A stretch of 64,000 nucleotides of DNA from the NCBI GenBank assembly GCA_027579435.1, contig JANBPK010000937.1, positions 31,512 through 95,511 of the forward strand, written 5' to 3'. This DNA is from Candolleomyces eurysporus. Its lineage: Eukaryota; Basidiomycota; Agaricomycetes; Agaricales; Psathyrellaceae. The notes under the pieces are model-generated. The model ran no database searches. It worked only from the letters and a program-made list of their open reading frames with translations, and was not told the DNA's origin. Shown here piece by piece: positions 41,858 through 62,043 of the stretch (positions are counted from its first letter, which is position 1; each line of letters starts with the position of its first letter). A program made the translations under genes and the position numbers.

Positions 41858-42150
41858 ATGCAATTCAAGTCGACACTACAGAAATCTCATCCCTCAGTGG
41901 CAGCGGGAATGGTGACCTTCACCGCAACCATAATAATGACTATCGTTACACTGGTCGGAGCAATACCCGTGCGCGCCCCGGACTTCGACGGTGAGTAGTC
42001 TATCTGTCCATGTTTCCTGAAATTGTCTATTCACACATACTCATTCCACACTGCCCTTCCGTTCCACAAGTAGCCAACCATGTACGCCAAGTGCGCCAAG
42101 GGCCCAGTGGGGATGTGTCGCAACCGAACTTTTGGACGTGCAGCTGCTGA
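41858..42150 (+). CDS. Secreted peptide precursor, Cys type (unit 1, FWTCSC)
   Basis: Two exons, 41858-41990 and 42071-42150, with a GTGAGT donor, CACAAG acceptor and phase-1 intron; 70 aa. Exon 1 is a signal peptide (MQFKSTLQKSHPSVAAG then the hydrophobic run TATIIMTIVTLVGA). Exon 2 encodes a short mature region ending SQPNFWTCSC at the stop. Five of seven Cys-type candidates end within three residues of the last Cys. There is no CaaX box and no dibasic site here. A TATA-like CTATAAATG lies about 85 bp upstream and a conserved 3' motif about 160 bp downstream. Function unknown. Confidence 0.7.
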
Positions 42151-43603
42151 TTGGATAATTTTACGGGCTGGTGGTCAGCAACCTGATAGATCAAACACAA
42201 CCCCCTTGCGTATTGGACTATGATAGATGGACGAGATGAACGCCGTTGGTAGGAAGCTTCATCCAAAGAGTCCCTGACTGTAAGCGAGCCACGTACGACA
42301 CCTTGTTCTGAAATTCTATGCAATCGTTAATCTGTTTAAGATACCCTCGACTCAAACTCGGTCAAGGTTAATTTCTTCATGCAGCTACCACTTCTGCATA
42401 TGTTCAAGTTCAGTGAAATCGATTCTGGCTAATAAGTTCCAAAATTCTGGTCATGCGGTTACGCAGCACCGGGAGCCCCTACCTATGCTCTTATGCAATG
42501 CATTCGTTTACAACAGCAGACCAAAGGGTAACTCCTCACTGTACTCTTTGGAAACTGAAGTAATTGTATAGCCCGATGGGATTTGATGAGTCAAAGCCGC
42601 TTGAATCCCCGTTTAACAAACACTAGAGATTCTACTATGTACAGACTAAAGTGGCGGTGCCGGTATACTGGTGAAAAAACACCTTCGGTTGCGAGGTGGC
42701 CTGAATAACATAGAATAGACAGTTTCTACATGGTTTAATTTTCCCTGATGAAAAAATTGACGGTGAATCCCGAATACCCCGTTTCACGGGATTTTGACTT
42801 ATCAAATATCGTCGGACTTTAGCTTCCCCTTACCATGTCACTTAAGCGCTCGGCCTCTGGATGAGTGGATGTACGTGTGAACAAACGTAGATGACCTCGT
42901 CACGGTCGCTCTATACTCGAATGAAATACACCCAAACCTTTTCGATCTTTGTTTATGTGTAGCTGCTTCAATCTAATGTCCTAACCTGAAACTTCGCTCA
43001 ACTCATAAGTGAAGTAAGATGTGATGTGTACATCCATGTTCTGTTGATCAGATTCAGACTCAGTCGTTGACTAAAGATTCGGGTGGAGCTCTTTATACTC
43101 GAGAAGCTTCTCGGAGCATAATTACTCTGAGTCAGGTACTACTCCTAGCTTACCTCCTAAATCGAAGCCCGAGTCGGCTTCACCGGTACCACTACGATAG
43201 CGATGATGGTCGCCCTCCTCAATGTCTCAATGTCGTGAGCTCGGATAACAAGTCCAAATAAGTTAAGACCAAGCTCGACACCTGGGCGTGAGGGCCGATC
43301 TCTCGAATCTGCTGAACCGAGAGTGCATCGTGGCCTGTGAACGTTGTCAACCTGGAGTTTTGATATTGTTTCGAGATGTTAGCAGAGTAACCGATGAGGA
43401 AAGAGGATTTAGCTCCTCCACGGCGACGGGCTCGGTATCCTTGCGAAATCACAGTGATCACTTAAGAGGTATGAGACTTGAGTTCTGCTCGGAATCAGAT
43501 TCAGCATCTGTGGGAACCATAATTTTTCAAACTCTGTCGGCTACTACGATAAATGCAGAGAGTCGCAGCTCAAGACATCTCTCCCTACACAAACACATAA
43601 CTC
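42151..43603. other. Spacer between units 1 and 2
   Basis: I find no further peptide unit here. It includes the 3' motif of unit 1 (42311) and the conserved upstream block of unit 2 (about 43420). Confidence 0.4.
42311..42337 (+). promoter_or_regulatory. Conserved 3' motif, copy 1
   Basis: AAATTCTATGCAATCGTTAA then TCTGTTT: a divergent copy of the motif that follows Cys-type units, about 160 bp after the unit 1 stop. Confidence 0.4.
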
Positions 43604-44180
43604 ATGCAACTCAGGCCTAATAAAAATAATGTCAGAGATTTCCGTGGCGGGGATCAACGGCTTTCAACCTTTTTCATCAGCTGTGCTGTTGAAACGGGTT
43701 TCAACAAATCAACATTGCTCAAGATTTCGTAAGGAAGGCCCTTGTGAGCTGGGTGAGCAAGTTATAGATGCAGTTCTAATCCACGTCCAACTCAAATTCT
43801 CCAAAAGAAGTGCATAAATCAACCCAATTCCAACCAAATTCTTCAGAGGATCTCTCAATGGCCTTTCAACAGCAGGCCATTGAAACGCTGCTACGGAAGT
43901 TTCCGACACNTTTTTTTTACACCTAGGAAGAAACTTTATCGTTTCTCAGGTCTCATGACAACAGCGATGTTAGCATGTCATGTCGACTATGCTGGTCAGG
44001 GACAAACCCTTGCCCTCCCCTGCCCTAGACAGTGAGTATTACTACACTTCCAAGCCATTCCATTTGTTGATCCACACACTCAATACTTCCTATCCTTTCT
44101 TTCTTTCAAATAGTGTACCCCAAGCTCGGGGATCTGGTGGGGAAGGAGCTCCCCAAATTTGGACGTGTTGCTCGTTGGAT
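43604..44180 (+). pseudogene. Decayed Cys-type peptide gene (unit 2)
   Basis: ATG 43604 (MQLRPN) matches the start of unit 1, but a 280-bp MITE-like element begins 26 bp later, inside the signal-peptide exon. Beyond it, a remnant of exon 1 reaches a GTGAGT donor near 44029. Exon 2 after 44112 still encodes a PQIWTCC core at about 44150-44170, now without an immediate stop. The core and intron positions identify it as a family member; the insertion makes it non-functional. Confidence 0.65.
43630..43909. mobile_element. MITE-like insertion in unit 2
   Basis: A 280-bp segment with imperfect terminal inverted repeats. The left end TGTCAGAGATTTCCGTGGCG and the inverted right end TGTCGGAAACTTCCGTAGCA match at about 16 of 20 positions, most mismatches being transitions. 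Subterminal GTTGAAA/TTTCAAC words occur on both sides. There is no coding capacity. It interrupts exon 1 of a peptide gene, which fixes its left boundary by comparison with unit 1. An N and T-run directly follow the right end, so the target duplication cannot be read. Confidence 0.6.
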
Positions 44181-44320
44181 AACTTCTTTTTAACAATTTC
44201 TGTACATCAGATGAGAGGTCGAAGGGTCGGCGGGTGGACGACCCCGCGGCCGACTTATCGTGTGCAGATTAGATGAGATCATGAGCGCTCGTTATATGGA
44301 TCTTTAGTTGTCCCGACTCT

Positions 44321-44723: not shown

Positions 44724-45012
44724 ATGGCAGTGGTGGTAGTGCTCACTGCCACCGCCACCGTGACTGAAGGCGTACAGGCGGTCTTAACTATTCTCGATGG
44801 TGAGCTATATATGACCATGCTTCAGGGTTTCAATCGACATCATCTCGTCCGTTACTTATCCAACACCGTTTTCCTCTTTCTTTGACTTCACCGTATTTGC
44901 AGCCAAGGACGATGGCGTCCATCAAACTCGGTCTGCTGACAGAGCCACCTTGGGAGAAATAACACGCCGGAAGTGCATGTGGACCTGCTTAAGGAGGTGG
45001 TCAGATAGTTAG
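44724..45012 (+). CDS. Candidate secreted peptide, Cys type (unit 3)
   Basis: Exons 44724-44799 and 44903-45012 (GTGAGC donor, TTTGCAG acceptor, phase 1); about 61 aa. The position matching unit 1's ATG reads ATT, so the start used here is a downstream in-frame ATG (MAVVVVLTATATVTEGVQAV), giving a shortened signal peptide. Exon 2 includes EITRRKCMWTCLRRWSDS, keeping W-T-C but with a longer, basic tail than other units and an RR-K site before the core. It may be a diverged gene or a start-lost pseudogene. Confidence 0.4.
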
Positions 45013-45130: not shown

Positions 45131-45861
45131 CTTTACTCTGATTTTAGCCTGGTCAGCGAGTTGGCTGCCCCCAGGTCCGTACCAATGCACTATGTCACGG
45201 TGATGTGACGCTTGACATCTGTCAAAGTCGATCACGTCAGTTACCCACTAGTCGAAGATATCTCTCGTTTAACATTGTCACTCTCGTTGATGTCGGAGGC
45301 GATGCTGAAATGAAGACTGGCTCGGTGATTTGCATCTGGATCGCTATGAAGCTCTTTTGGTCCTCGGATGACTGACTTTTCGTTCATCCATTGTGACATA
45401 CTTGCACTCTCTTCCTAGGACCCAGTTACTGCCGCATATAGTTATGCTGGGTTGACTTGGCTTGACTCGAGAGTAGGGGATCGGTACCATTGAATTATAG
45501 CAATGAACTTTAACTCTGCCCCGAGAGAACTGCGCCTCTTAATAGCAGTAGTAAGCATGTATCACTGACAATCCAAGTACGCACCCATCATCATATGCAT
45601 ATCTTATCTCATCTCACCGTGGTTACTCCGGTGTTGTCCATGGCTACGTACCATCATGCAGAAGACCAGATATGGTCGGGAACTCTACGGCGATCTCAGT
45701 TGCCCTTGTTTTGGACTTGAACCCTGAGCTTTCTTGCAAGTATGATCAATTGCAAGTCTTTCTACAACCCTGTGTAGACTAGATGGGAGAGTCGTTGTCA
45801 GGAAGCCTCATCCAAGCCTCTAACCCCTGTGCTCGAGCGCGTTGTGTATGTCATTTGGTTC

Positions 45862-45888
45862 GGACTCCGTAGAGTCGTTAATCTGTTC
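45862..45888 (+). promoter_or_regulatory. Orphan 3' motif, copy 4
   Basis: GGACTCCGTAGAGTCGTTAA then TCTGTTC with no intact peptide exon upstream; marks a decayed unit. Confidence 0.4.
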
Positions 45889-46630
45889 AATAATTTTTCG
45901 ATTCTACCTCGGTTATGGTTAGCTGTCCATTGTGGTGTCGTTTGATCCGCGTCTGATTTGTTGGGTCGCTGCTCCCCCATCACTTTGCTTGCAATCTCCG
46001 CACCTCCAAACCTATATTGTACATAAAAAGATGGACGAATCACCTGTTGTGGAGCGAAGAAACCCCTATTGAACGCTCTTCGAGCCTACGGGTAAACGAC
46101 GCCCGGCCCCCTGTAGCTCTGACGGCTTGCCGGTCGCCCCTTACTGATTCGATCATCTAAGCGCCTGGCGTCTATCGACGAGAGTAGAGTTGAAATTTAA
46201 TTATTGATCGACTGTTTAGAAGCATCTATGTACAGCTGGCCGGAGCGAGCCAAATCCGACGCTTTACACAGAGTCGCAGGACTCTCCGAGCGCCGAGGGG
46301 TGAATATCATACGTAGGTATGTCCCGGACCGCCCACATTAAAGCCCCACGGCAATCTCCTTGGCCACCCTGTAGGTACCCTTCTCCACGACTTGTTTATT
46401 CAATCACGACATCCCGAAAATGAGTCAAAGATCCCGTCCCCAGGCCTTATAAATTCAAATCGAACGAGACCGCGGTTCAGGGTTCACTGCTTGATCAACC
46501 ATCTTCCAACCATCCGTTCTTCGTCGTGTATAGCTACCCAGTTAGCCACACTCTCACCAACTACCCACCAAGAACATACTAAACCATCTCTGTCTCTGGC
46601 AGGCAAATTAACATACGGAGCCTTGGATTC

Positions 46631-46899
46631 ATGGCGCAGCACTTCAAATCGCGGGCCTTCAAGAAAAATTTTTCAGCGCTCTGTACCACGGCGATGGTAG
46701 TGCTTGCCACCTTGACTCTCATTTCTGCCGGCAGTGGTATCACAGCGGCTGGAGCCCTGCCTTTGCCCAGCCAATTGAATAAGAGTGAGCGCTACTACCA
46801 TCTCTTTTCTAAGCCAAACCTTATTTAATAATTGAAGCCAATGACAAGCGTGGCGACAGCGACCAAGGTTCACTCTTTTGGACGTGCGGCTGTCACTGA
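46631..46899 (+). CDS. Secreted peptide precursor, Cys type (unit 4, FWTCGCH)
   Basis: Exons 46631-46784 and 46838-46899 (GTGAGC donor, TTGAAG acceptor, phase 1); 71 aa. The signal peptide begins MAQHFKSRAFKKNFSALC and continues with a hydrophobic core (TTAMVVLATLTLISAG). Exon 2 encodes TNDKRGDSDQGSLFWTCGCH. A Lys-Arg site before GDSDQG could be cut by Kex2-type protease, releasing a 15-residue peptide (inference). A decayed copy lies at 50.4 kb in a duplicated block. TATAAATTC occurs about 180 bp upstream. Confidence 0.7.
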
Positions 46900-47000
46900 T
46901 CACAGTCATTGGTCCTGGATCTGTATTTACTGTTGTATAAAGGCCAACCTGCCCGTGGCCGCAAAGGAGAGTGCTTTGAAGCTGCTATTTTGTATCCTCA

Positions 47001-47027
47001 AACTCTGTAAAGTCGTCGATCTGTTTC
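47001..47027 (+). promoter_or_regulatory. Conserved 3' motif, copy 5
   Basis: AACTCTGTAAAGTCGTCGAT then CTGTTTC, about 100 bp after the unit 4 stop; nearly identical to the copy at 50779. Confidence 0.5.
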
Positions 47028-47667
47028 ATATCATATCTAACTTCACTCGATGGGCTTCTCCATTCCAATTAGGTGAGTGATCAATCATCACTTTGATTCA
47101 TCTCGTGTACCACCCCAGGGGGTTCTGCGTGATGACATCTCTTGTTGATCAGTCACCCTCCGAACTTCTAGGAGAGACGACTCACGATGTCCGCAGTTCG
47201 TCACTTATCTAGGAACAGTAAATATATCGACACCGTTACAACCATTACAACCTGGAATCTCGACCTAGATTTCTCGAGTTATTGATAAGTTGGATGAACC
47301 TGAACGCTCTAACGACTTTGAAACAAACAGTCGGAGAGATGGTTCTATGGTCAATCATATTTTATCCTAATCTTACCACAGCTGCATAAAGAGCCGCTGC
47401 ATTGCTCTCGAACTTGCAAAAGAGAACTTCTAGAGCTTCACTGCGGACCTTCCAATACTCCTTCATCCTCAATGCCGTTCTGGGTTTCAACNTTTTTTGG
47501 ATGAAGCTCGGATGGTATCAGGATTTGGAGCTTAGAAGCCTCGGGAGGGCTTGATCAGGACCAGTTTGAGGACCCTCAACTAGTATAAATCGGCCTACCG
47601 GGAATCTCTACACTCCCACAATAACAGAAGCGCCGTATATTATCCCTCAGACCTGGCCGCACCTCCG

Positions 47668-47949
47668 ATGCAAAGCTTCAAGTCTAGACTCTCAATTTCA
47701 GCGTTCACGATCAGTATGGTACTCATGACGATGGTCAGCGCCGCACCCTTAGTCTCAGTGACTACGGCGCGAGTAGCACTGGACGGCGGTGGGCGCGATT
47801 CGGACGACTTCAACTTTTGGAAGTCCCTTGAAGGATTGCTCATTGCCACTTATCATGGTAGCTCACGACCCAACTCGAAGTCCAGCAGAGCAAGTTCAGA
47901 CTCACGGTATTTTTGGTCGTGCAGCTGTGGAGAGAATCATAGTATGTAG
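47668..47949 (+). CDS. Candidate secreted peptide, Cys type (unit 5, FWSCSC)
   Basis: ATG 47668 opens MQSFKSRLSISAFTISMVLM, a signal peptide followed by VSAAPLV. Read without splicing, the frame is open to 47949 and ends SDSRYFWSCSCGENHSM. Splicing as in its duplicate at 52.0 kb (donor here GTGGGC, acceptor GTAG at 47861) gives a frame that misses the core, because this copy has one C fewer in the CCC/CCCC run of exon 2. So it is either expressed unspliced, uses another splice site, or is a frameshifted copy. TATAAATCG lies about 84 bp upstream. Confidence 0.45.
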   Translation: MQSFKSRLSISAFTISMVLMTMVSAAPLVSVTTARVALDGGGRDSDDFNFWKSLEGLLIATYHGSSRPNSKSSRASSDSRYFWSCSCGENHSM

Positions 47950-48538
47950 TCGGCCTATTAATAGTACGCACCTCTGGAACTCGAGATCATCAGGGGAGGG
48001 TGGGAGAGTGATCAGGATCCAACTCAACTAGTCACTGATCATAGATCCAAGATGAGTCGTTGATTCTTAATATTCCACGCTAACTGCAATTATCGTCATC
48101 TACTCTCATGATGAACCTTGTTGCGCGCAGCTCTCTCTCTCTTTACGAGGGCATACCCATGGTCGCCAAAGTGAGAGGTTGATGTTGATCATCGTGAGGC
48201 TCCAAATTCGCTCAGGATCACCGATATCTTACTCATTTCATGTTCCATCTCACCGCAGCTACTATGACGTTATCAGTACATACCGTGATACAGACGATCA
48301 AATGGCCGGAAACTCTACGGCGCTCTCGGTTCCCTTTGCCTTGGCCCCTACCCCTGAAACGTCCTGTGCTAAGTATTGTTAATCACAGGTATCTCCACAG
48401 TCGTACATATGCACCACTCGCTCTTCGCCGTTTCCATAACGTCTCTCGATACTCGGAGGAGGTCACAGACACATACAAGTGCAGAGTACAGCGAGTCACA
48501 GTAAAGTTATCTCATCCCTCCCTCGCTCTCTCGGAAAG

Positions 48539-48808
48539 ATGCAATTCGTGCAAAGCTTCAAATCGACCTCGACGTTCGCAATGCTAGCGACCGTGGCAGT
48601 GATATTCTCCATCATGTCAACCAGTGCGATTGCACTGGTCGAAGCTGCGCCCTTGGTTCCCGCCCAAGCCGCAGATGGTTTGTACTAATACTATGCGGTC
48701 AAGCCACTCGGCGACGCGCTTGCTCACGCCGACTGTTTTTCTTTTTCTACAGTAAACGAGGCCGGGACTCGATTCAAAGGAGGACCGCAATTTTGGACGT
48801 GCTGTTAG
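48539..48808 (+). CDS. Secreted peptide precursor, Cys type (unit 6, FWTCC)
   Basis: Exons 48539-48677 and 48753-48808 (unusual GTTTGT donor, TTCTACAG acceptor, phase 1); 64 aa. The signal peptide MQFVQSFKSTSTFAMLAT.. ends with LVEAAPLVPAQAAD. Exon 2 encodes VNEAGTRFKGGPQFWTCC, with the two cysteines as the last residues. Its duplicate at 52.9 kb keeps the same exon layout and WTCC end while the residues between vary. Confidence 0.7.
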
Positions 48809-48942
48809 CTACCTAGGAATGCTCAAAGCTGAGACGGAATTTGAGGGAGGACTCAATCGGTGCAGTGTAGATGTTAATGGACGAGGGATGAGTCGCACGC
48901 AGTACACTATAGATCATAATGATAGGCACAGTAGTTGAGCCC

Positions 48943-48968
48943 AATCTCCGTACAATCGTCGATTTGTT
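48943..48968 (+). promoter_or_regulatory. Conserved 3' motif, copy 6
   Basis: AATCTCCGTACAATCGTCGA then TTTGTT, about 135 bp after the unit 6 stop. Confidence 0.5.
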
Positions 48969-49685
48969 GGCACAAGTGTTCCAGTGTAGTATGTATTATA
49001 TCTTTGTCATACTCAAGTTCGTGAGTTGAGTTGAGTGTTTCGGATTGGGTACCTACGGGCGTTCAACCCTCGGCCCCCACCTCCATTTCGTTAAACTGCG
49101 ATGCTCGGATGCGACCGACCTACCCCCTCCTGTCGATAATTATCATCAATATCAGAACATGCACATACCCCATAAATTGACTCGTTTGATTTTGAAGGAG
49201 GAAGAGAGGATCTTGAAGCTCCGAGTCACGAGTAGAGTCAGAACCTGATCCGAGCCTCCATGATCATCCGTGCAGGCGTAGAATAGAAGTGCGCCTTGAG
49301 GGTAGTGCAAAATTTGAAAGTATTCGGGAGTCAGGGAGTTGAGGGCAGCGTCGTTGGCCGTCCACCGAAAAGATTACGTGAAACGAAGGCGAAACGAGCC
49401 CGAAACGAACGTTGAATGAGAGAGTCGGCCACGGTCTCATCAGTAATAGTATCCATGATACTAGTCTTATGATAATCACGCGAGGCAGGTAGTTGAGGCA
49501 AAGTTGGCTGGCTTGGAGGAGTGACGCTGGTGATAATCGATAAATGATGCCGCTGGTATGAATAAGTCCCTTTAGTGTATGAGTATAAGTATGACTGCGA
49601 GCAATTGGCAGCCATCCGCAGTGCCTTCAAGCCTGAGCAGTTCTTATTCTGTAATCTTCTAATTCTCATTGCTAGACAAGCGACA

Positions 49686-49994
49686 ATGAACTTAAAACCT
49701 TTACCCCTGTCGACAATGGTTATGATCGTCGTCTCAACTCTAGCTTCTGTTGCTACTGCGACAATCCCTGACCCTTCCGGCCTCCTTCCGAAAGAGGTTG
49801 TGGACGGGACTCCGGGTGTTCAAACCAAATCGAAAGGTAAGTTTGAGCTTCTACGCTGCCGGTCTTTTTTTCGTCATCACGAGTTCGACGTCCGAGGTCA
49901 TGTCAAACTTATTAACTCCCCTTGAACAGACCATAAACTGGCGGCACCGGCAGGCATCCCGTTCATTTGGACGAGGGAGGACGATTGGGTGTGA
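49686..49994 (+). CDS. Secreted peptide precursor, acidic type (unit 9, WTREDDWV)
   Basis: Exons 49686-49836 and 49930-49994 (GTAAGT donor, GAACAG acceptor, phase 1); 71 aa. The signal peptide is MNLKPLPLSTMVMIVVSTLA; the linker PKEVVDGTPGVQTKSK follows. Exon 2 encodes DHKLAAPAGIPFIWTREDDW plus a final V. It shares intron phase, size and the W-T core with Cys-type units but has no cysteine. AGTATAAGT lies about 100 bp upstream, as in its copies at 54.0 and 58.9 kb. Confidence 0.75.
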
Positions 49995-50415
49995 TCGCCA
50001 TCACGCGTCGAGTCATCTTAATTTGAAAAAATATGGACTGGAAGTCGGACTTGAAGGGTGCTCCGACTTGATTTATCTTCACGTCCGAGATTTGGGCTTT
50101 TTGGATCGTCAGACTATTTTAAATCACTGTATGTATTCTCTATGTAGCCGTAGTATATCATGTATACGAGTGTTGTATTTAAATAGGAAATATCGATATC
50201 CCTTCTTCCAGCGGGCGTACGGATCTCTCCGCAAAATCTTGTGGGAGACCCTGACAAGAACAAGCAAAGTTCTCACTGCTCTGTCGGGCATCTTCCAAAA
50301 ATTTGTCCTTCGTCGTATGTATTTACCCATTTAGAGACACTCTTACCAACTACCCATCAATAGTATGCTAGACTCTCTCTCTGGTAGGCAACTAAAAACA
50401 CGGAGTTTTAGATTC
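49995..50415. other. 3' flank of unit 9 and 5' flank of decayed unit 4 copy
   Basis: The first part matches flanks after 54301 and 59145. The last part matches the region before unit 4 (ACTACCCA..AACATACT-like words), marking the junction of two duplication blocks. Confidence 0.45.
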
Positions 50416-50680
50416 ATGGTGTAGCGCTTCAAGTCGCGGGGCCTCAAGAAAACTTTCTCGGTGCTCACTACTACGCCAATGGTAGTGCTTGTCACCTTGA
50501 CTCCCATATCCTCTGGAAGTGGTATCTCAACAGCTAGGGCCTTGCCTTTGCCTAGCCAATTGAGCAAGAATGAGTACTATTACCATTTCTTTTTCAAGCT
50601 ATACCTTATCAATAATCAAAGCTAATGACAAGCTTAACGACGGCGACTAAGGATCACTCTTTTGGGAGTGCGGCTGCTGA
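50416..50680 (+). pseudogene. Decayed copy of unit 4 (Cys type)
   Basis: It aligns along its length with unit 4 but has TAG at codon 3 where unit 4 has CAG, ATGAGT at the donor site where unit 4 has GTGAGC, and TAA in exon 2 where unit 4 has CAA. The core reads LFWECGC instead of LFWTCGCH. The two stops and the lost donor are each single C-to-T or G-to-A type changes. Flanks on both sides are also shared with unit 4. Confidence 0.8.
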
Positions 50681-51982
50681 TCACAGTCATTGGCCCAGAG
50701 TCTATACTGCTGTATGAGGACTAAACTGCTCGAGGCTGCGAAGGAGAGTGCGTTGAATCTGTTACTTTTGTATCCTCAAACTCCGTACAGTCATCGATCT
50801 GTTTCATATCATACAAGGCCTGCCTCGCTTCGCTACGGCCTCAGGATACAGGAATAATGACTAAGTTTGGAGTCGATGTATCCCTTGACTCTTTGCTCAG
50901 GGGCTATGGCCAGATGCAACATGCGACTGTGCAACTCCTATCAGACCAAGAATACCTACCTCTGAGGGCCTCACTACTTGTACTGATGAGATCATTGACG
51001 TGCTCATCCCCCTCAGTTGAGACTCTCCTCACGGTCGTATCCAAAACTATGTGATGCTCTGGCAAAGTCTATTGCGTGCACACAAAAGCAATGAAACAGA
51101 CTTCGAGTTCACCCGTTCAAAGACCCTCCTCGTGATTTGGATTATGAGATATAAGAGGACTCGAAGGGAACTTAAGCTTGCCTTGCAAATATAAAATATG
51201 ATGACGACTTGGCATCATACAGAGGTCAAAGCAGGAACCAAAATCAATTGTACAGAATGCAGAAAGGGCGAATTTGGAAAGAGCTGGTCAAAGAGAAAGC
51301 AGCCAAGAAGTAACCAGAAGCAAACTGATCGAGGACCTCTCTTTCAAGATACTAGAGGATATGATTTCACTCAATGGGCTTTTCCATTCCAATTGAGTGA
51401 GAGATCAATCATCACTTTAGTCCATCCCGTGTGCCACTGCAGGGGGTTCTGCGTGATGATATCTCCTGTTGATCAGCCATACTCTGAACTTCTAGGAGGA
51501 GAGATGACCCGCGATGTCCGCAGTTCGTCACTTATCTAAGACCAGTGAACATATGGACCTTGTTGCAATCATCACGACCTGGAACCTCGACTGAGATTTC
51601 TTGAGTTATTGATAAGTCACATTTGGCCTGAACGCCCTAACGACTTTGAAACAAACCGTCGAGATGGTTCCCTGATAAATCATATCTTATCCCAATCTCA
51701 CCGCAACTGCACAAACAGTCGCCGCATGGTTCGCGGACTCGGAAAAGAGACCTTCTGGAGCTCCAGTGAAGGCGGATCTTCCATTACTCCTTCAACTTCA
51801 ATGCCGTTTTATGTTTGAACTTTTCTGGACAAAGTCCAGATAGTAGCTCAGAAGTCTCGGAAGGGCTTGATCAGGACAAAGTTGGGGACACTCCATCCTA
51901 TAAATCGTCGTAAAGAGAGCCCCCACGCTCCCAGCATACCTAAAACGTGGTATATCACCCCTCAGAGCTGAGCACACCTTCA
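50681..51982. other. Spacer duplicated from 46.9-47.67 kb
   Basis: Mostly non-coding sequence similar to the spacer between units 4 and 5 (for example GGGGGTTCTGCGTGATGA at about 51434 and 47128). An additional segment of about 0.5 kb (roughly 50.82-51.35 kb) has no counterpart there and contains no recognised gene. Confidence 0.45.
50779..50804 (+). promoter_or_regulatory. Conserved 3' motif, copy 7
   Basis: AACTCCGTACAGTCATCGAT then CTGTTT, about 100 bp after the decayed unit 4 copy. Confidence 0.5.
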
Positions 51983-52279
51983 ATGCAAGGCTTCAAGTCT
52001 AAACTCTCTATTCCAGCGCTTATGGTCAGTATGGTACTAGTAACAATGGTCACCGCCGTACCCTTGGCCTCAGTGCCTACGGTGCGAGTTGCACTGGACA
52101 GCGGTGAGTGCGACTCGGTGGCTTCAACTGTTTTGTCTCGTTTCCGCGCTTTTCCTTTTCAAGTTGTCTGAATTTTTTGCTCATTGCCGCCTATTACAAT
52201 AGCTCATGACCCCAACTTGAAGCTCAGCAGAGAAAATTCAGACTCACGGAATATGTGGTCGTGCAACTGTACGGAGTAG
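51983..52279 (+). CDS. Secreted peptide precursor, Cys type (unit 7, MWSCNCTE)
   Basis: Exons 51983-52103 and 52203-52279 (GTGAGT donor, AATAG acceptor, phase 1); 65 aa. The signal peptide is MQGFKSKLSIPALMVSMVLV. Exon 2 encodes a hydrophilic stretch ending SRNMWSCNCTE: Ser replaces Thr in the core and two residues follow the last Cys. It is the intact duplicate of unit 5 and shows how that unit would splice without its one-base difference. TATAAATCG lies about 84 bp upstream. Confidence 0.65.
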
Positions 52280-53172: not shown

Positions 53173-54013
53173 CCCCCCACCGCTTGAAGCTGAGAAGGAG
53201 CTTATAGGAAGGAGTCAATCGGTGCAAGTTTAGATGTTAAAAGACCAGGGAAGAGCCGCACACAGTGCACTACAGATCATAATAATAGGTATAGTAGTAG
53301 ATGTTGGACCCAATCTCCGTACAATCGTCGAAGTGTTGTTTAAAGTATTCCGGTGTAGTATGTATTATATCTTTGTCACATCTTAGTTTGTGAGTTGAGT
53401 GTTTCAGATCAGGTACCTACGGCCGTTCAACCTTCGGCCCTCCACCTCCAATTCATTCAACTGCGATGCTCGGATGCGACGGACCTACACCCTCCTGTCG
53501 TGACTCTCATCGATATCAGAGCATGCACATCCCCATAAATTGACTCGTTTGTTGCTGTTGGAGGAACGGAGGATCTTGAAGCTCCGAGTTACTAGCCAGA
53601 ACCCGGTCCGAGTCTCCATGGCCATCCACCAGATGTAGACTGGAAGTATCGCTTGAGAGTAGTACAAAATTCAAAAGTACTCGGGAGTCAGGGAGCTAGA
53701 GGGCGGCATCGTTGACCGTACACCGAAAAGGTTACAAAACGAGGGCAAAACGAGCCCAAAACGAACGTGGAATGAGAGAGTCGGCCATCTATGACATGAT
53801 ACTAGTCTTATGATAATCTCCCGAGGCAGATAGCTGAGAGGGTTGGCTGGCTCGGAGGAGTGACGTTAGTGATATGTGGTGCCACCGGTAAGTCCCTTTG
53901 AAGTGCGAGTATAAGTATAACTGCGAGCAATTGGCGGCAACCGTCCTCAGTGCCTTCAAGCTTGAGCAGCTCTTTCCTGTGATCTTCTTACCCTCACTGC
54001 TAAACAAGCGACA
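53173..54013. other. Spacer; upstream flank of unit 10
   Basis: No gene. From about 53.4 kb it is similar to 49.03 kb and 58.23 kb onwards (CCTACGGCCGTTCAACC and AGGATCTTGAAGCTCCGAGT words), the 5' flank shared by acidic-type units 9, 10 and 10'. Confidence 0.45.
53311..53337 (+). promoter_or_regulatory. Conserved 3' motif, copy 8
   Basis: AATCTCCGTACAATCGTCGA then AGTGTTG, about 140 bp after the unit 8 stop. Confidence 0.5.
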
Positions 54014-54301
54014 ATGAATTTGAAGCCTTTGGCGTTGTCGACGATGATCGTCGTCGTCATCTCTACTCTAGCTTCCGTTGCCGCTGCAGCGGCGATCCCT
54101 GTCCCCGCCGCCCCGCCCCATAATTGTTTTGTAACCAGAGAGAAAAGTAAGTTCAAGCTTTCAAGCCGTCTGCNTTTTTTGTTCATCACGAGTTCCGACG
54201 TCCGGAGCCATATTAACCTTGTTAACGTCCCTTGCACAGACCTTAGGTGGGTAAAGCCATGCGGCATGCTCATCTGGACGAGGGAGGATGATTGGGTGTA
54301 A
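54014..54301 (+). CDS. Secreted peptide precursor, acidic type (unit 10)
   Basis: Exons 54014-54146 and 54240-54301 (GTAAGT donor, TTGCACAG acceptor, phase 1); 64 aa. The signal peptide is MNLKPLALSTMIVVVISTLA. Exon 1 ends with HNCFVTREK and exon 2 encodes NLRWVKPCGMLIWTREDDWV, so there is one Cys in each exon and a disulfide is possible. The N at 54174 falls in the intron. It is a duplicate of the unit at 58.9 kb. Confidence 0.7.
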   Translation: MNLKPLALSTMIVVVISTLASVAAAAAIPVPAAPPHNCFVTREKSKFKLSSRLXFLFITSSDVRSHINLVNVPCTDLRWVKPCGMLIWTREDDWV

Positions 54302-55436
54302 TGACCATCATGCGTCGAGTCATCGTAATTCAAAAAATGTGCACTGTAGGCCGAACTTGTAAGGTGGCTTGGTGATCGTCAAAAGGAAGAATTTGAATAA
54401 GACGCCTTGATTTGATTCCCCCTCGAAGTCGGACTCGATGTGGACTGTTTGGATCTCTGGACTATCTTAATTGATTGTATGTATGTACCATGTATGTCAG
54501 TGTTGTATTTAAATAGGGAATAGCGATATCCACCTCTGGACCGACGGACGGCGCTTTCCATAAAATCTCGTGGGGGAACGGAAGTCAGCACTGCCTGGAG
54601 TTGAGTTCATGCCCGTACTTACTAATCTAATCAGGGACGAGGAAGGGGCCATCGCGTGGGGACTACTGAGGCCTGTCTAGTTTGCTCGTTGAGCGCATTG
54701 ACTATGTTCCTCAGCTCTCCATTTCACTTGATTTCGTTTTAACCGCGGTGCGTGCAACGGATTCACCTCATCCTTTGAGAGAGGATATCGATACATCAAG
54801 ATAGTCCACTGTTCAGACGAACGGACGCACCTCTCTGTAAAATCAATCTCGTGGGGTACCTCGGGCCTAACAAGAACGGTATACCGGTGTAAGTACGTAC
54901 TATATTTTTTTCACACTTGAGCTCATTAAGTTCCGGATTAGGATCCTACGGCCGTTCAACCCTCGACCGTCACCCAATTTGTTTCACTGCGACGCTGGGG
55001 TGCGACCTCCTTCCGTCGATAAGTATCATCAATATCAGACCGTGAACATATCCCATCGACTGATTCGCTCGCTATTGAAGGAAGAAGAGAGGATCTTGAA
55101 GCTCCGAGTCTTCATGATCATCCAAGTAGAACGGAAGCGCGCCTTGAGAGTAAGTAATACACAAGAGTGCTTGGGAGTCATGGAGTTAGTAAAGGGCGGT
55201 GTCGGTGGCCGTACACGGAACAGCGCAAGTTACGAAACGAGACTCGGAGGAGTGACGTCAGTGATATTCGGTGCCTGGTATGAATATGAAGAAGTGTAAT
55301 TGTAAGTATGTACAAATGCTAACTTGCAGCGGCCAGTTAGGTGCGGGCAATTGTCAACCATCCTCGTGCCCTCGAGCAGCGGCTGTTCTCATTTTATGCT
55401 GTGATGGTGCAACCCTCACCGCTGTAACGAGCGACA
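54302..55436. other. Spacer, duplicated at 59.15-60.25 kb
   Basis: No gene. Extended similarity to the later block (GGATCCTACGGCCGTTCAAC, GATAAGTA.CATCAATATCAG). ORFs within it are not shared as proteins. Confidence 0.45.
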
Positions 55437-55730
55437 ATGAATTTGAAGGCTTTGGCCTTGTCGACGATGATCATCCTCTTCATCTTGACTCTGGCTTCCG
55501 CTGCCACTACAGCGACGATCCCTAACCCCGCCGACCCCCTCCCGAGAGAGGCTCTGGACGGGACTCCGGGTGGTCAAGCTAAATTCAAAGGTAAGTCTAA
55601 GCTTTTAGGCATGTCTGTCTTTTCGAGATCACAGGTTCCGACGTCGTTATGTCACCCCTGAACAAACCAGGAATTGGGGTGGCGGCCGACAAGTTATACA
55701 CCGCTCATTTGGATGGGGGACGACGATTGA
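55437..55730 (+). pseudogene. Decayed acidic-type peptide gene (unit 11)
   Basis: Exon 1 is intact (MNLKALALSTMIILFILTLA, then REALDGTPGGQAKFK) with a GTAAGT donor. The acceptor that reads GAACAG in unit 9 is GAACAA here. The core reads LIWMGDDD then TGA where others read LIWTREDDWV, so TGG became TGA and ACG became ATG. Use of the next AG moves translation out of the core frame (GIGVAADKLYTAHLDGG). Either a pseudogene or a copy with a changed, longer C-terminus. Confidence 0.6.
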
Positions 55731-57219
55731 GTGCGATCGTGGACCGCTGTGACCAGCGGTGCGGACTCGTCGAGTCATTGGCCGCTAGCCTTATGGAGGC
55801 GTGGTATAATTACTTACCGTGTATGTTTTATGTAAATAGGAAAGGTCGATAGCCACTCTTCGGACGGATGCATGTTCCTCTCCCTCGTTGGAAACCCTGA
55901 CAAGAACGAGGGTCGCCACTGCGTGCAATTGAGTTCATGGCCGTACGTACTAGTCTAATCAGGGACGAGGAAGAGGCTATCGCGTGGGCACCCTCGAGGC
56001 CTGTCTCATTCGTTGGTTGAGCGTTTAAAATGAGGACACCAGGAGGACCAAGTTCTTCGGCCCCCAGTTTCGTCTCTTATCGTCTCGTTCAACTGCGGTG
56101 CGACCAACAGACCTACGTCCTCCTGCCAGATAAGAATATCCATCTACCCTTCGCATGGACTCATACACCTCTCCCTCGTTGGTGACCCTGACAAGAACAA
56201 CAGACGCCGCCACTGCATGCAATTGAGCTCATGGCCGTGCATACTAGTCTAATCAAAGCTAGAAAGGGCCTGTTTCGTGGGGTCCCTCGAGCCCTGTCTC
56301 GTTCGTTCGTTGAGCGTTTTCAATGAGGATACCAGGAGGACTATATATCTTCCTCGGCCCCTCCATCCCCGTGTCTTTTTTGTCTGACTGCGGCGCCACC
56401 GACCGACCGACCTACCTCCGCGTACTCGTACATAGCACACCATGAGTTGACTCAGCTTTTGTATATAGCTGTAGAGAAGTTGGATTAGAAGAAATTGGAT
56501 TCGGAGAATTGGAGTTGGTTTCGAGTCACGTCGCAGCACTCGGTCCGAGACGCCTGAGACCAGACATCGCGAATGAATCGTACCTGTGGGAAGTGACCGC
56601 TGCTTTGCACGGCAGTTGTCTGGGGCATTTTGCCTCCCCACTCATTGTGTGCTCAGACCGGGAAGCAAGAGGAGACATGCTAAAGGTGAACCCAAGAAAG
56701 GAAAGTGGGAAATGCCAACGGAAAACAGCGGTGCCGATGTTGGTTCCTGCACATGCCGCGCGTCCATCTTGGCGCCTGGAAACTGCGTGTAGTATGAACC
56801 GAGTCAAAATGCCTCGAAACTTTGCAAAAATGGACTTGGAGCGCATTTCACAGGAATTAGCGGGGAGGAGGGGGTATAGGGCGGCGTCAACGTCGACGTG
56901 TGTAGTGAGCGAGCTATGAAACGGATGCCGAGCGAAATGAATGAAATCAAACGGAATGGAGGGGAGTCAGAGTCCTGAAACTGGTGCTATGCTATGTGTG
57001 ATGGGATACTAGTCTCACACCCGAGGCAGGACGACAAATCGAGTGACTCGGAGTACTTAACGTCATTTAGGTACGCGGAGGGGTACTTAAGGGCGGGGAG
57101 AGTATGGGGTGCGGACGTTACTGGGACATTTAATCCGCCTTTCCCTTACTTCATTCACAGATACATATTCTGTGAACCCGAACAACCCTACAACTCTCGC
57201 AGCGCCAAGCTCAGCTACG
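55731..57219. other. Spacer, duplicated at 60.56-61.78 kb
   Basis: No supported gene. About 250 bp (56.57-56.83 kb) are present here but absent from the later copy, an insertion or deletion between blocks. A 136-codon ORF (56509-56919) spans this difference and is not conserved, so I do not call it. Confidence 0.45.
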
Positions 57220-57492
57220 ATGAACTTGAAACTCTCTTTGCCGCTGTCGGCGGTGTTCGTCATCGCCATCTCTACCCTTGCTGCTGTCTCCAATGCAGCG
57301 ACGATTCCACCCCCCGACCTCCTCCCGAAAGAGGTTGTAGACGGGACACCCGGTGTTACCCCATCGAAAGGTGAATAATAATATTCAGCTCTTCATCACA
57401 TCACCCGTTAACCTCTTGACGAAGGCCAGAAAGTCGGTCCACCGACAATCAATGCGGCGCTAATTTGGACGAGGGAGGACGATTGGGTGTGA
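57220..57492 (+). CDS. Secreted peptide precursor, acidic type (unit 13)
   Basis: Exons 57220-57370 and 57434-57492 (GTGAAT donor, AGAAAG acceptor, phase 1); 69 aa. The signal peptide is MNLKLSLPLSAVFVIAISTL; the linker LLPKEVVDGTPGVTPSKG follows. Exon 2 encodes VGPPTINAALIWTREDDWV. An in-frame upstream ATG (57109) exists, but the conserved start in all acidic-type units is M-N/H/D-L-K. The duplicate at 61.8 kb differs at only a few mature residues. Confidence 0.75.
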
Positions 57493-58862
57493 TTGCCATT
57501 TGCGGAAGATTCTGGGCCGTCGAGTCGCCGAGAGAAAGAGGTCGCAGTGTGGGGTGGCTTAGTGGTTGGTGAGAAGAAGCTTCAGTTATTTAACCTCCAA
57601 GGAAATGTGGACTTTTGGACTCCCGGACTCTCGATCTTCACTGTAGCATATAAATTGTCTTTTGTATGTAGCATAGTATTTGTAGTTTATTATCTCGATA
57701 GGATAACCGCTCGTCGGATGGACGCGCTTCTCTGTAGAATTTGGACCCTGGTTAGCACCGCATGCAATTTTAGTCCAGGGGCAAGGAAGGAGGGGTTTAT
57801 CGCGTGGGCACCCTCGGGCTTATCTCCCGAGAATTATATCTGGTCAACGGAAAGACGTCAGTTATGGAAGTTTTGCTCCCTCAATTGGCAATGCTCCACT
57901 GTCCTCTGGCATGAAATTTGGAAGAAGGTCCGCACGCCAACATTGCCGTTTGGCTGGTTGGTGTCAATGGCGTGCTCAGAACAATAGTCTAATTGAGACT
58001 CCAGCGGGTCAGCATGGTCGCGATGTGGATTTGACTCCATCAAACAGTAGGAGGCTAGTCTGGCTTAACATTGCCCTTGATAACGTATACCATTCGACGC
58101 AAATTCAAATTAGCTTCTGAACGGTGCCATTTTCATGGCGATATGCGGAGAACTGATGGAATAAACGGCAAAACATNAAAAAGTTTTGCATTACCCTGGG
58201 AGTGATAGTACCCAAGTTCGTTTGTTGATTCGGATTAGGATCCTACGGCCGCCCAACCATCGGCCCTCCACATCCATTTCGTATAACTGCGATACTCAGA
58301 TGCGACTGACCTATCTTCTCCCGTCTGTTAGCATCGATACCAGACCATACACATACCTTATGAAATTGATTTATTGAAGGAGGAAGAGAGGATCTTGAAG
58401 CTCCGAGTCACTCGTCTTACCTGGTCAGAGCTTCCATGATCATCCACTCAGACGTAAAATGGAAGTGCCGCTTGAGAGTAGTACAAAACTCAAAGTACCC
58501 GGGAGTCAGGGAGTCAGAGGGCAGCGTCGTTCGCTGTAAACCGAGCACGTAACGGCGAAACGAACGTGGAATGAGAGAGTCGGTCACGGCCCCGTCAGTA
58601 ATAGTACTGGCAGTATCTATGATATGATGCTGATCTTATGATAATCTCCCGAGATAGCTGAGAGAAGGTTGGCTGGCTCGGAGGAGTGACGTTAGTGATA
58701 TATGGTGCCACTGGTAAGTCCCTTTGAGGTACGAGTATAAGTATAGCTGTTCCCTTGCAGCGGCCAACTAACTGCGAGCAATTGGCAACCATCCTCAGTG
58801 CCTTCAAGTCTAAGCAGCTCTTTCTCTGTGATCTTCTAACCCTCACTGCTAAACAAGCGACA
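57493..58862. other. Spacer and block junction
   Basis: 57.49-58.1 kb is repeated after unit 14 (62.04-62.7 kb). From about 58.2 kb the next duplication block starts, matching 53.4 kb onwards. An N precedes an A-run at 58177. No gene is supported. Confidence 0.45.
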
Positions 58863-59145
58863 ATGAACTTGAAGCCTTTGGCGCTGTCGACGATGATCGT
58901 CGTCGTCATCTCGACTCTAGCTTCCGTTACCGTTGCAACGACGATCCCTACCCCCGCCAACCTCTCGCCGGAATGTAATCCGGACGGTAAGTTCAAGCTT
59001 TGAAGCTGTCTGCTTTTTTGTCATCACGAGTTTCGGCGGAGTCCGAGGTCATATCAAATTTGTTAACGTCCCTTGCACAGGCCTTGGACAAGTAAAGCGA
59101 TGCGCTTCGCTCATCTGGACGACGAGGGAGGATGATCGGGTGTAA
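58863..59145 (+). CDS. Secreted peptide precursor, acidic type (unit 10')
   Basis: Exons 58863-58986 and 59081-59145 (GTAAGT donor, TTGCACAG acceptor, phase 1); 62 aa. The signal peptide is MNLKPLALSTMIVVVISTLA, identical to unit 10 over these 20 residues. Exon 2 encodes GLGQVKRCASLIWTTREDDR plus V: the core gained one Thr and its last Trp is Arg. Cysteines remain one per exon (PECNP and KRCA). A Lys-Arg site precedes the Cys. Confidence 0.65.
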
Positions 59146-60254
59146 TCACCATCATGCGTCGAGCCATCGTAATTCGAAAAATGTGGACTGGAAGTCGAAC
59201 TTGGAAGGTGGCTCGGTGATTGTCGAAAAGAAGAATTTGAATAAGAGGTCTTTACTTAATTCCCCCTCGAAGTCGGACTCGATGTAAACTTTTTGGATCT
59301 CTGGACTATCTGAATTGACTGTATGTATGCACCATGTATGTCAGTGTTGTATTTAAATAGGAAATATCGATATCCACCCTCTGGCCGGACGGACGCAGCT
59401 TCCCACAAAATCTCGTGGGGCATCCTGACAAGAACGGAAGTCAGCACCATGCCCGTACTTGCTAATCTGATCAGGGAAAGGGACATCGCGTGGGTACCCT
59501 CGAGGCCTCTCTTATTTGCTCATTGAGCGTTTTGAATGAGGAGACTACATTTCTCAGCGCTCCATTTCACTTGGATTTGTTAAACCGCGAGGCGGTGCAA
59601 CGGATTCATCTCATCCTTCCAGAGAGGAGGTATCGATGTAGTCTACTGTTCGGACGAACGGACGCACCACTCTGTAAAATCTCGTGGGACACCTCGGGCT
59701 TAACAAGAACGGGATTCCGATGTAAGTACGTACTATATCTTTTTCACACTTGAGCTTATCAAGCTGAGTGCTCCGGATTAGGATCCTACGGCCGTTCAAC
59801 CCTCGACCATCACCCACAATTCGTTTCACTGCGACGCTCGGGTGCGCCCTCCTTCCGTCGATAAGTACCATCAATATCAGACCGTGAACATATCCCATAA
59901 ACTGATTCGTTCGTTGTTGAAGGAAGAAGAGAGGATCTTGGAGCTCCGAGTCTCCATGATCATCCATCCAAGTAGAATGGAAGCGCGCCCTGAGAGTATA
60001 CAAGAGTACTTGGGAGTCATGGAGTTAGTAAAGGGCGGTGTCGGTGGCCGTACACGGAACAGCGCAAGTTACGAAACGAGACTCGGAGGAGTGACGTCAG
60101 TGATATTCGGTGCCTGGGATGAATGAGTGCAAGTCTAAGTGTAAGTATGTGTAAATGCTAACTTGCAGCGGTGGGTGGGAGAAATTGTCAAACATCCTCA
60201 GTGCCCGCTGTTCTTGTCTTATTGCGACCCTCACCGAGGCTTCAACGAGCGACA
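59146..60254. other. Spacer, second copy of 54.3-55.44 kb
   Basis: Non-coding duplicate; no gene seen. Confidence 0.45.
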
Positions 60255-60556
60255 ATGGATTTGAAGCCTTTGGCCAAGTTGTTGACGATGATCATCCTCG
60301 TCATTTCGACTCTGCTGGCTTCCGCTGCCACTGCAGCGACGATTCCTAACCCCGCCGACCCCTCCCGAAGAAGGCTATGGACGGAACTCCAGGTGGTCAA
60401 GCTAAATTCAAAGGTAAGTTTAAGCTTTTAGGCATGTCCGTCTTTTCGAGATCACAGGTTCCGCCGACGTCATTATGTCACTCCTGAACAAACCGGGAAT
60501 TGGGGTGGCGGCCGACAAGTTATACACCGCTCATTTGGATGGGGGACGACGATTGA
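60255..60556 (+). pseudogene. Decayed acidic-type peptide gene (unit 12)
   Basis: A copy of unit 11. Exon 1 begins MDLKPLAKLLTMIILVISTL, then a one-base loss turns the conserved linker (KEVVDGTPG in others) into SRRRLWTELQVVK. The acceptor region reads GAACAAACCGGG with no AG. The core has the same TGG-to-TGA change as unit 11 (WMGDDD then stop), so that change predates the block duplication. Confidence 0.7.
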
Positions 60557-61777
60557 GTGCGATCGTGGACCGCTGTGACCAGCAGTGCGGACTCGTCGAG
60601 TCATTGGCCGCTAGTCTTTATGTAGCCGTGGTATGCCTACCATGTATGTTGTATGTAAATAGGAAAGGTCAATAGCCACTCTTCGGACGGATGCATGTTC
60701 CTCTCCCTCGTTGGGAACCCTGACAAGAATGAGGGTCGCTACTGCGTGCAATTGAGTTCATGGCCGTACGTACTAGTCTAATCAGGGACGAGGAAGGGGC
60801 TATCGCGTGTGCACCCTCGAGGCCTGTCTCGTTCGAAGTTGGTTGAGCGTTTAAAATGAGGACACCAGGAGGACAAGTTCTTCGGCCCCTGATTTCGTCT
60901 CGTTCGACTGCGGTGCGGCCAACAGACCCACCTCCTCCTGCCAGATAAGAATATCGACATCTACCCTTCGGATGGACGCATGCACCCCTCCCTGGTTGGT
61001 GACCCTGACAAAAATAACAGGCGCCGCTGCTGCGTGCAATTGAGCTCATGTCCGTACGTACCAATCTAATCGGGGCTAGAAAGGGCCTGTTGCGTGGAGG
61101 CCCTCGAGGCCTGTCTAGCCCGTTCGTTGAGCGTTTTCAACGAGGATACCAGGAGGACTAGATATCTTCTTCGGNCCCCCCCATCCCCGTGCCTATGATT
61201 TGTCTAACTGCGGCGCCACCGACCGACCGACCTACCTCCGCGTACTCGTACATAGCACACCACGAGTTGACTCAGCTGTCACATATAGCTGTAGAGATGT
61301 TGGATTAGAAGGACTTGGATTCGGAGAATTGGAGTTGGTTCCGAGTCACGCAGCAGCAGCACTTGGTCCGAGAGGCCTAAGACCGCGAATTCGTAATACG
61401 CAGAACGGACTTGAAGCGCATTTCACAGGAATGCGAAGGGCCTCGGGGGTATAAAGCGGTGCCAATGTCGACGTGTATAGTGAGCGAGCTATGAAACGGG
61501 TGCCAAGCGAAATGAATGAAATCAGACGGAATGGAGGAGTCAGTCAAGTGTGTCCTGAAACTGGTGCTATGCTGGGTGTGATGGGATACTAGTTTCACAA
61601 CGGCGGCTTGAGTGACTCGGAGTAACGTCACTGAGGTACGCGGAGGGGTACTTAAGGGTAGGGAGTATGGGGTGCGGACGTTACTGTTACATTTAATCCT
61701 CCCTCACTTCGTTCACAGATACATAGTCTGTGAACCCGAATAACCTACCAATCTTAACAGCGCCAAGCTCAGCTACG
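60557..61777. other. Spacer, second copy of 55.73-57.2 kb
   Basis: Non-coding duplicate lacking about 250 bp of the first copy; an N precedes a C-run at 61175. No gene seen. Confidence 0.45.
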
Positions 61778-62043
61778 ATGCACTTGAAACTCTCTTTGCC
61801 CCTGTCGGCGGTGTTTGTGATCGTCTTCTCAGCTCTCGCTTCCGTTGCCAATGCAGCGACGATCCCATCCCCCGACCTCCTCCCGAAAGAGGTGGTGGAC
61901 GGAACACCCGGTGTTACCTCATCGAAAGGTAAATAGATGTTTAACTCTTCACCACGTCAACCTGCTAATAACCTTTTTGCACAGTCGGTGCACCGACAGT
62001 TAATTCAGCGCTAATTTGGACTCGGGAGGACGATTGGGTGTGA
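61778..62043 (+). CDS. Secreted peptide precursor, acidic type (unit 14)
   Basis: Exons 61778-61928 and 61985-62043 (GTAAAT donor, TTGCACAG acceptor, phase 1); 69 aa. The signal peptide is MHLKLSLPLSAVFVIVFSAL; the linker LLPKEVVDGTPGVTSSKG follows. Exon 2 encodes VGAPTVNSALIWTREDDWV. Compared with unit 13, the second half of the mature peptide is unchanged while other positions vary, which argues for selection on the LIWTREDDWV end. Confidence 0.75.

Follow-up and report, generated by a model that had tools for sequence, protein, structure and literature searches.

What kind of product is encoded by a run of short genes near the end of a fungal contig, and which parts of that product are kept when the genes are copied? 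The fungus is Candolleomyces eurysporus, an agaric of the family Psathyrellaceae with a genome of 65.9 Mb, and the window analysed here comprises the final 64,000 bases of its 95,511-bp contig JANBPK010000937.1 (positions below are those of the window). An initial annotation had described there, at 41858..62043, a tandem array of genes for small secreted peptides ending in a Trp-Thr core. Our analysis suggests, with a probability of about 0.57, that these units are genus-restricted precursors of single secreted peptides, in which the tail would serve as a fixed contact and the middle would be free, or at times driven, to change in the course of a biotic interaction.

A tandem array of two-exon genes

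The whole contig was scanned for gene models with a methionine start, a hydrophobic 12-residue stretch, a GT..AG intron of about 45-160 nucleotides (nt), a short exon 2 and [FILMV]-W-[T/S] at most 11 residues from the stop. This returned 13 models on the plus strand and none on the minus strand, whilst random contigs from a first-order Markov model, each scanned on one strand, gave about 0.25 per strand (2 matches in 10 contigs for phase 1 only, 5 in 20 for any phase). Among control motifs on the plus strand, Y-T/S gave 2 matches and W with any residue other than T/S behind it gave 4, which include the decayed unit U12 and a reading in the wrong frame at U5. All 13 models have a hydrophobic N-terminal stretch (best 12-residue mean at least 1.9), which is itself a condition of the scan. 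TATAAA or TATAAG is present 30-220 bp upstream of 7 of the 13 starts, whereas 6.9% of random positions have one at that distance (binomial 8e-6, block copies not being independent). These results confirm that the tandem array of signal-exon, intron and short-exon genes is real.

Twelve of the models lie inside the reported span (U1, U3, U4, U5, U6, U7, U9, U10, U11, U13, U14 and U16) together with five decayed copies (U2, a relic, U8, U12 and U15), in agreement with the numbers given in the initial annotation. The start of the array at 41858 has to be moved, as a thirteenth model, U0 (MPFKAS...IMWTCS), lies directly upstream and had been overlooked. Five of the 18 units are clearly decayed and three further ones are doubtful. 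The units are listed below, with ends given up to the stop codon.

U0, 40993..41273 (+): exon 1 40993-41125, intron 41126-41214, exon 2 41215-41273; end IMWTCS; new, outside the span first reported
U1, 41858..42150 (+): exons 41858-41990 and 42074-42150; end NFWTCSC; TATA box at -76
U2, 43604..44180 (+, approximate limits): decayed; IWTCC reading without its stop
U3, 44724..45012 (+): weak model with a doubtful start region; exons 44724-44799 and 44903-45012; end CMWTCLRRWSDS
Relic unit, 45582..45887 (+): LFWT and stop at 45706-45720, then a 3' element (see below) about 145 nt on, with an exact pattern fit
U4, 46631..46899 (+): exons 46631-46784 and 46838-46899; end LFWTCGCH
U5, 47668..47949 (+): weak model requiring an alternative acceptor, the one homologous to that of U9 giving a frameshift; exons 47668-47788 and 47900-47949; end YFWSCSCGENHSM
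U6, 48539..48808 (+): exons 48539-48677 and 48753-48808; end QFWTCC
U7, 49686..49994 (+): exons 49686-49836 and 49930-49994; end FIWTREDDWV; GenBank H1R20_g8926 (partial), C. aberdarensis counterpart EST38_g3666
U8, 50417..50680 (+): decayed copy of U4, both exons interrupted by a stop; still has the LFWECGC end and a 3' element
U9, 51983..52279 (+): exons 51983-52103 and 52203-52279; end NMWSCNCTE
U10, 52906..53172 (+): exons 52906-53032 and 53111-53172; end PLWTCC; block copy of U6, from which its linker differs strongly
U11, 54014..54301 (+): exons 54014-54146 and 54240-54301; end MLIWTREDDWV; variable segment with two Cys
U12, 55437..55730 (+): decayed; standard splicing leads to a frame other than that of the LIWMGDDD end
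U13, 57220..57492 (+): exons 57220-57370 and 57425-57492; end ALIWTREDDWV; C. aberdarensis counterpart EST38_g3665
U14, 58863..59145 (+): weak model, tail altered by an inserted codon and W to R; exons 58863-58986 and 59081-59145; end SLIWTTREDDRV; variable segment with two Cys
U15, 60255..60556 (+): decayed copy of U12 with an additional exon-1 frameshift and the acceptor lost
U16, 61778..62043 (+): exons 61778-61928 and 61985-62043; end ALIWTREDDWV; identical to GenBank H1R20_g8927

The 5' part of U2 is split by an insertion-like stretch (43604-44000) with inverted repeats (11-nt arms at 43684-43694 and 43864-43874), possibly a small transposable element. The window also holds 12 single N bases (e.g. 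43910, 47492 and 54174), several of them beside T runs, which probably mark unresolved homopolymer lengths.

Two subfamilies can be distinguished by their tails. Eight units carry a Cys tail, W-[TS]-C (FWTCC, LWTCC, FWTCSC, FWTCGCH, MWSCNCTE, FWSCSCGENHSM, MWTCS and MWTCLRRWSDS), 6 of them with an early F-K; the other five start with M-[NH]-L-K and end in IWTREDDWV, altered in U14. The single design first proposed, a signal exon, a phase-1 intron and a short exon ending at W-T/S, is seen throughout, with phase 1 scoring best in 12 of the 13 models. In the exception, U13, phase 0 scored higher; its reading in phase 1 gives the junction GQKVGPP, the same as in an annotated C. aberdarensis protein (P0002). 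Homology of the two subfamilies was, however, unsupported by profile comparison (probability 1.2, not significant), so that their common origin, likely but not proved, rests on position, layout and the common hydrophobic-W-T.

Comparison of the sequence with itself revealed two block duplications, the source of much of the copy number:

Block duplication A, 46484..54577 (+): 46484-50261 (U4-U7) and 50273-54577 (U8-U11), aligned pieces 76-78% identical
Block duplication B, 53400..62696 (+): 53400-58022 (U11-U13) and 58226-62696 (U14-U16), aligned pieces 78-82% identical

Tandem Repeats Finder reported two small arrays, neither built of peptide units, and a tRNA scan was empty.

Conserved ends and, in some pairs, a fast-changing middle

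Duplicated units were aligned with their surroundings, so that the intron and flanks of each pair provide a local background. Six block pairs were tested, with U4/U8 left out; no correction for multiple testing was applied to the Fisher tests, and some units occur in more than one pair. The middle coding DNA outpaces the adjacent intron and flanks clearly in U6/U10 and U11/U14 and less clearly in U7/U11, but not in the other three pairs. Identity between U6 and U10 is 82-84% in the flanks, 84% in the intron, 95% in the signal part, 53% in the exon-2 linker and 89% in the tail. For U11/U14, flanks are 84% and the intron 87% identical, post-signal exon 1 57%, linker 66% and tail 97%; the corresponding figures for U7/U11 are 85% upstream, 64% downstream, 76%, 62%, 53% and 90%. 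Divergence of the middle against the pair's own intron amounts to 0.47 vs 0.16 in U6/U10 (p = 6e-4), 0.41 vs 0.24 in U7/U11 (p = 0.016) and 0.40 vs 0.13 in U11/U14 (p = 9e-5), and comparison with both flanks gave p = 3e-5, 4e-4 and 2e-6, respectively. Within the post-signal segment of U11/U14, nonsynonymous differences per site (pN) reach 0.49 vs 0.28 for synonymous ones (pS), and the decayed pair U12/U15 displays no middle excess (p = 1.0 and 0.58). The claim that duplicates diverge in the linker and keep their end therefore holds for U6/U10 and U11/U14, and more weakly for U7/U11; it does not extend to U5/U9, whose tail changes equally, or to U13/U16, whose linker is kept.

Most signal exons, and the IWTREDDWV tail, are under purifying selection. 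Signal-exon pN/pS was 0.04/0.15 for U11/U14, 0.12/0.59 for U7/U11 and 0.11/0.38 for U13/U16. Tail codons differ at synonymous sites only (pS 0.46 for U7/U11 and 0.43 for U7/U16, pN 0 in both), and the amino acids of IWTREDDWV are identical in U7, U11, U13, U16 and two C. aberdarensis proteins, whilst synonymous sites differ. The U7 and U13 tails are identical even in DNA, yet their flanks align at just 43-45%. A lack of constraint on the W-T terminus, named by the initial annotation as the outcome that would overturn it, is thus not what the IWTREDDWV group displays, although in the Cys group codon counts do not show constraint. The term 'core' for this end prejudges which part is active, since the middle is the fastest-changing part.

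Several observations weigh against a fixed tail and a changing middle as a general rule. No constraint is seen in the signal exon of U6/U10 (pN/pS 0.04/0.04), and it is weak over the whole of exon 1 in U5/U9 (pN 0.14, pS 0.22). The U6/U10 tail differs by one nonsynonymous and no synonymous change, that of U11/U14 by an inserted codon and one nonsynonymous change, and that of U5/U9 at pS 0.32 and pN 0.28; codon-level tail constraint is therefore confined to the intact IWTREDDWV units. As for the middle, its divergence in U7/U11 is similar to that of the downstream flank alone (0.41 vs 0.36, p = 0.39), and it is slower than the intron in U5/U9 (p = 0.036) and U13/U16 (p = 0.032), in the latter slower than the flanks too (p = 0.0015). 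Between species, moreover, the middles of U7 and U13 hardly differ from those of their C. aberdarensis counterparts, which makes the change episodic. Synonymous change in the U6/U10 linker is high as well (pS 0.69, pN 0.38), so that local replacement from a donor sequence or hypermutation may have acted; apart from units of the family, a search of the contig for donor segments of the altered linkers found no more than chance matches 11-16 bases long. When gaps are counted as mismatches, 7-22% of block windows are equally low and the segments are no outliers (0.7-5% without gaps). Signal peptides and cleavage points, finally, were judged by eye and hydrophobicity rather than by SignalP.

The alternation of held and changing parts would also fit leader/variable-core/follower precursors sent through the secretory pathway, with the tail as a processing tag and the middle as the released, perhaps modified, product. 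MSDIN precursors have this logic, conserved ends bracketing a variable core. Two pairs do show a fast middle between a conserved signal exon and tail, a third does so less clearly, and the two Cys in the variable segment of U11 and U14, spaced by 13 and 10 residues (none occur there in U7, U13 and U16), could close a loop. Like the array, the MSDIN/cycloamanide precursors form a small expanded family of short precursors, whose cores are excised at conserved prolines (accessible part of PMC9233826) in a process described as cytoplasmic (accessible part of PMC9769878). Neither feature is present in the array units, which instead have a hydrophobic signal-like exon: none of the 13 translations has an MSDIN leader (they start MQ, MN, MH, MA or MP), a proline-bounded core or conserved flanking prolines. 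A six-frame Pfam scan of 11.5-41.5 kb of the window, in which introns may hide domains, recognised no tailoring or processing enzyme, whether peptidase (prolyl oligopeptidase included), methyltransferase, P450 or DUF3328/UstY-type enzyme; on the other side of the array, just 2 kb of contig are left. With the middle of U7 and U13 conserved across species as well, we consider such precursors unlikely. A related and still rather unlikely possibility is a peptide-diversifying array, in which a fixed leader and a W-T tag would bracket a segment rewritten after duplication on either side of the conserved intron; the products would then be a new tag-bearing class of secreted signals or toxins with a W-T partner of its own.

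A 3' element and the relatives of the family

A 23-nt element resembling CTCYGTANARTCGTYRATCTGTT lies about 100-165 nt past the stop at seven sites (window 41421-53337). With up to 3 mismatches allowed, its pattern is matched 6 times in the window, where 0.01 matches are expected. Coordinates of individual sites are as follows:

41421-41443 (+): 3' element of U0
42314-42336 (+): 3' element of U1
47003-47025 (+): 3' element of U4
48946-48968 (+): 3' element of U6
50781-50803 (+): 3' element of U8
53315-53337 (+): 3' element of U10

The best ungapped consensus scores out of 23 are 22 for U6, 21 for U8 and U10, 20 for U4, 19 for the relic, 18 for U0 and 17 for U1, followed by U2 (16), U9 (14), U3 (13) and U5 (12); among 2,000 random 320-nt stretches, 11 attained 16 and none scored higher. 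The element is thus found in 5 of the 8 Cys-tailed units, in decayed U8 and in the relic. Its position past U0 backs that model, and past the LFWT stop it exposes the relic. Two points tell against giving it much weight: the pattern was derived from the sites themselves, and it was not seen in 3 of the 8 Cys-tailed units (U3, U5 and U9). A general genomic motif was considered and dropped, as 6 of the 8 places that match genome-wide at up to 2 mismatches belong to the array. The element could be involved in transcript ending or mRNA regulation.

Among 5.8 billion proteins, a search with a profile of 12 units found four, two of them from this contig. Hypothetical protein H1R20_g8927 (P0001, partial) is identical to spliced U16, and H1R20_g8926 (P0004) equals U7 from its second Met; the other two, EST38_g3665 and EST38_g3666 of C. 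aberdarensis, carry the exact IWTREDDWV. The family, called undescribed by the initial annotation, is therefore mostly unannotated as far as these searches show, except that two of its units already stand as hypothetical proteins. EST38_g3666 (P0003) runs nine residues past IWTREDDWV, matching the frame of the 3' sequence of U7, which suggests loss of the stop codon; at the other end, the protein reaches into the region equivalent to the 5' leader of U7. A trimmed U6 query had no words in common with any protein searched, and a profile of U0, U1, U4 and U9 found no protein. No relatives outside the genus were found among the same 5.8 billion proteins; because the search requires shared 5-residue words, distant ones could be missed, and this absence is not proof. 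Annotated genomes of Coprinopsis and Coprinellus exist (PMC10182949, accessible part). Among the open-access papers that literature searches returned, none describes this peptide family in its title or the opening of its abstract.

As far as searched, the genome of C. eurysporus itself holds no second locus of the family. Searches with U13, U6 and U4 matched only this array (the counts being lower bounds), U4 finding only itself and U8. The FWTCC pattern occurs at 10 places in this genome, one of which is U6; none of the 8 examined has an immediate stop or a signal-exon model (at 5 the tail is long, and 3 gave no model at all), and one was unread. W-[TS]-C-C-stop, with TGG also admitted as last codon, occurs at 39 places, including U6 and U10; 30 were examined, 14 with a true stop, and the remaining 7 end in TGG. 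All 28 genomic places matching W-[TS]-C-x-C-stop were examined. Apart from U1, the 58 pattern loci yielded a single weak candidate, in phase 2 (L063).

Could the units be unexpressed remnants of an old small gene, retained by block duplication alone? The decayed and doubtful units (5 and 3 of the 18) would fit, as would protein searches that returned just two annotated units; the codon-level constraint on signal and IWTREDDWV tail, the TATA and 3' elements and the annotated counterparts in C. aberdarensis all speak against it, and we regard this as very improbable.

The surroundings include a 188-nt direct repeat (2239-2426 and 4860-5047, 98.9% identical) and, outside the peptide array, a 0.9-kb duplication (23678-24581 and 27105-28022, 66% identical). 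One minus frame of 11.5-26.5 kb gives a weak dynamin/P-loop signal, with no single stretch past threshold; together with related stretches at 7505-7822, 14835-15154 and 22455-22549 (70-76% alike), it may reflect a small local family of GTPase-like genes.

Orphan, probably secreted peptides and what they may do

No Pfam family was found above cut-off for eight units and two relatives (U3, U5, U7, U10 and U13 were not among the spliced proteins scanned), and 30 single reading frames, two of the entries overlapping in one frame, gave one match below cut-off. This upholds the view of a small, probably secreted tandem family with a conserved terminus, for which no match among described fungal peptide families was found. 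Its distinction from CaaX pheromones, hydrophobins and MSDIN-type precursors also stands. None of the 13 models ends in Cys-aliphatic-aliphatic-X (U4 ends in CGCH) or has the combination of basidiomycete pheromones, a C-terminal CaaX without a signal peptide. Neither the eight-Cys pattern nor a Pfam domain of hydrophobins or Cys-rich antimicrobials was seen, the mature parts having a net charge of -3 to +3 and at most 2 Cys each. Geranylgeranylation of the -CC and -CXC ends, as in Rab proteins, was set aside by reasoning only, because the products should enter the lumen of the endoplasmic reticulum (ER).

KEX2-processed repeat proteins (KEPs) are defined by multiple cores flanked by KEX2 sites; those of Agaricomycetes are, like the array units, small secreted mushroom precursors, and some of their cores end in Trp (PMC9769878, accessible part). 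The array units have the N-terminal secretion signal, as judged by hydrophobicity and as a condition of the scan, but no repeated cores split by dibasic KEX2 sites: each precursor bears a single tail, and KR, RR, RK or KK occurs in only 3 of the 13 mature parts, never conserved before the tail and with no regular spacing. Nor are they the KEX2-repeat precursors of dikaritins, a class of ribosomally synthesised and post-translationally modified peptides. What the units do match is the description of small secreted orphan proteins: short, signal-bearing, free of known domains and lineage-restricted, the last at the sensitivity of a shared-word search. The array is a new family within this known general kind, and in some of its pairs the pattern of rates is unusual. 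The DELD family of Piriformospora (Serendipita) indica, small secreted basidiomycete proteins, reportedly also has a common short C-terminal motif, though a different one; the likeness is by description only.

Signalling precursors offer a closer parallel in layout. Plant CLE precursors have a signal segment, a non-conserved middle and a short conserved C-terminus in 50-150 residues, and belong to a multigene family (PMC7552357, accessible part); Qsp1 of Cryptococcus neoformans, likened by description only, also comes from a basidiomycete, which secretes it as a pro-peptide that matures extracellularly (PMC7537855, accessible part). If the array worked in this way, the C-terminal 5-10 residues would be cut out as a signal and the middle would be a spacer, and the protein-level invariance of IWTREDDWV across two species is in keeping with this. 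A mere spacer should not outpace its background, yet the middle does so in two or three pairs, and no conserved dibasic site precedes the tail. The array further differs from CLE in being fungal, in its Cys-containing tails and in the absence, by eye, of the 12-13-residue C-terminal CLE motif, leaving a likeness in layout only; Qsp1 is a single 11-residue peptide, for which the accessible part of PMC7537855 mentions no tandem array. We regard signalling of this kind as possible but tentative. Antimicrobial or anti-grazer defence peptides kept as a diversifying array appear doubtful: array growth, the decay of five copies, a restriction to this lineage within the searches made and an accelerated middle in some pairs point towards them, but the mature parts are not typically cationic and, with so few Cys, a Cys-rich fold is unlikely.

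The favoured explanation, precursors with a fixed tail contact and a changeable middle, overlaps both of these and does not choose between signalling and defence. Under it, the N-terminal hydrophobic segment would take the product into the ER and then be cleaved, leaving a peptide of about 27-46 residues. Fixed contact would be made by the C-terminal tail (hydrophobic-W-T/S with a Cys motif or REDDWV), through which the peptide would be anchored to a receptor, a surface or a partner in processing; new targets, or escape from being recognised, may come from changes in the N-terminal part of the mature peptide. That the array grows and turns over, and that its products are orphans, points to a biotic interaction rather than housekeeping, be it with competitors, grazers or partners, or in recognition between strains.

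Genes of this kind are easily missed: annotated models were found for only two of the 13 (U7 and U16), and these bear consecutive gene numbers despite the five intact and three decayed units between them. The array is also more informative than at first read, since its duplicates carry flanks and introns as built-in controls, which makes held and driven parts of the peptides measurable. Should the tail act as a recognition tag, a new fungal pathway of peptide signalling or defence could be defined through its partner.

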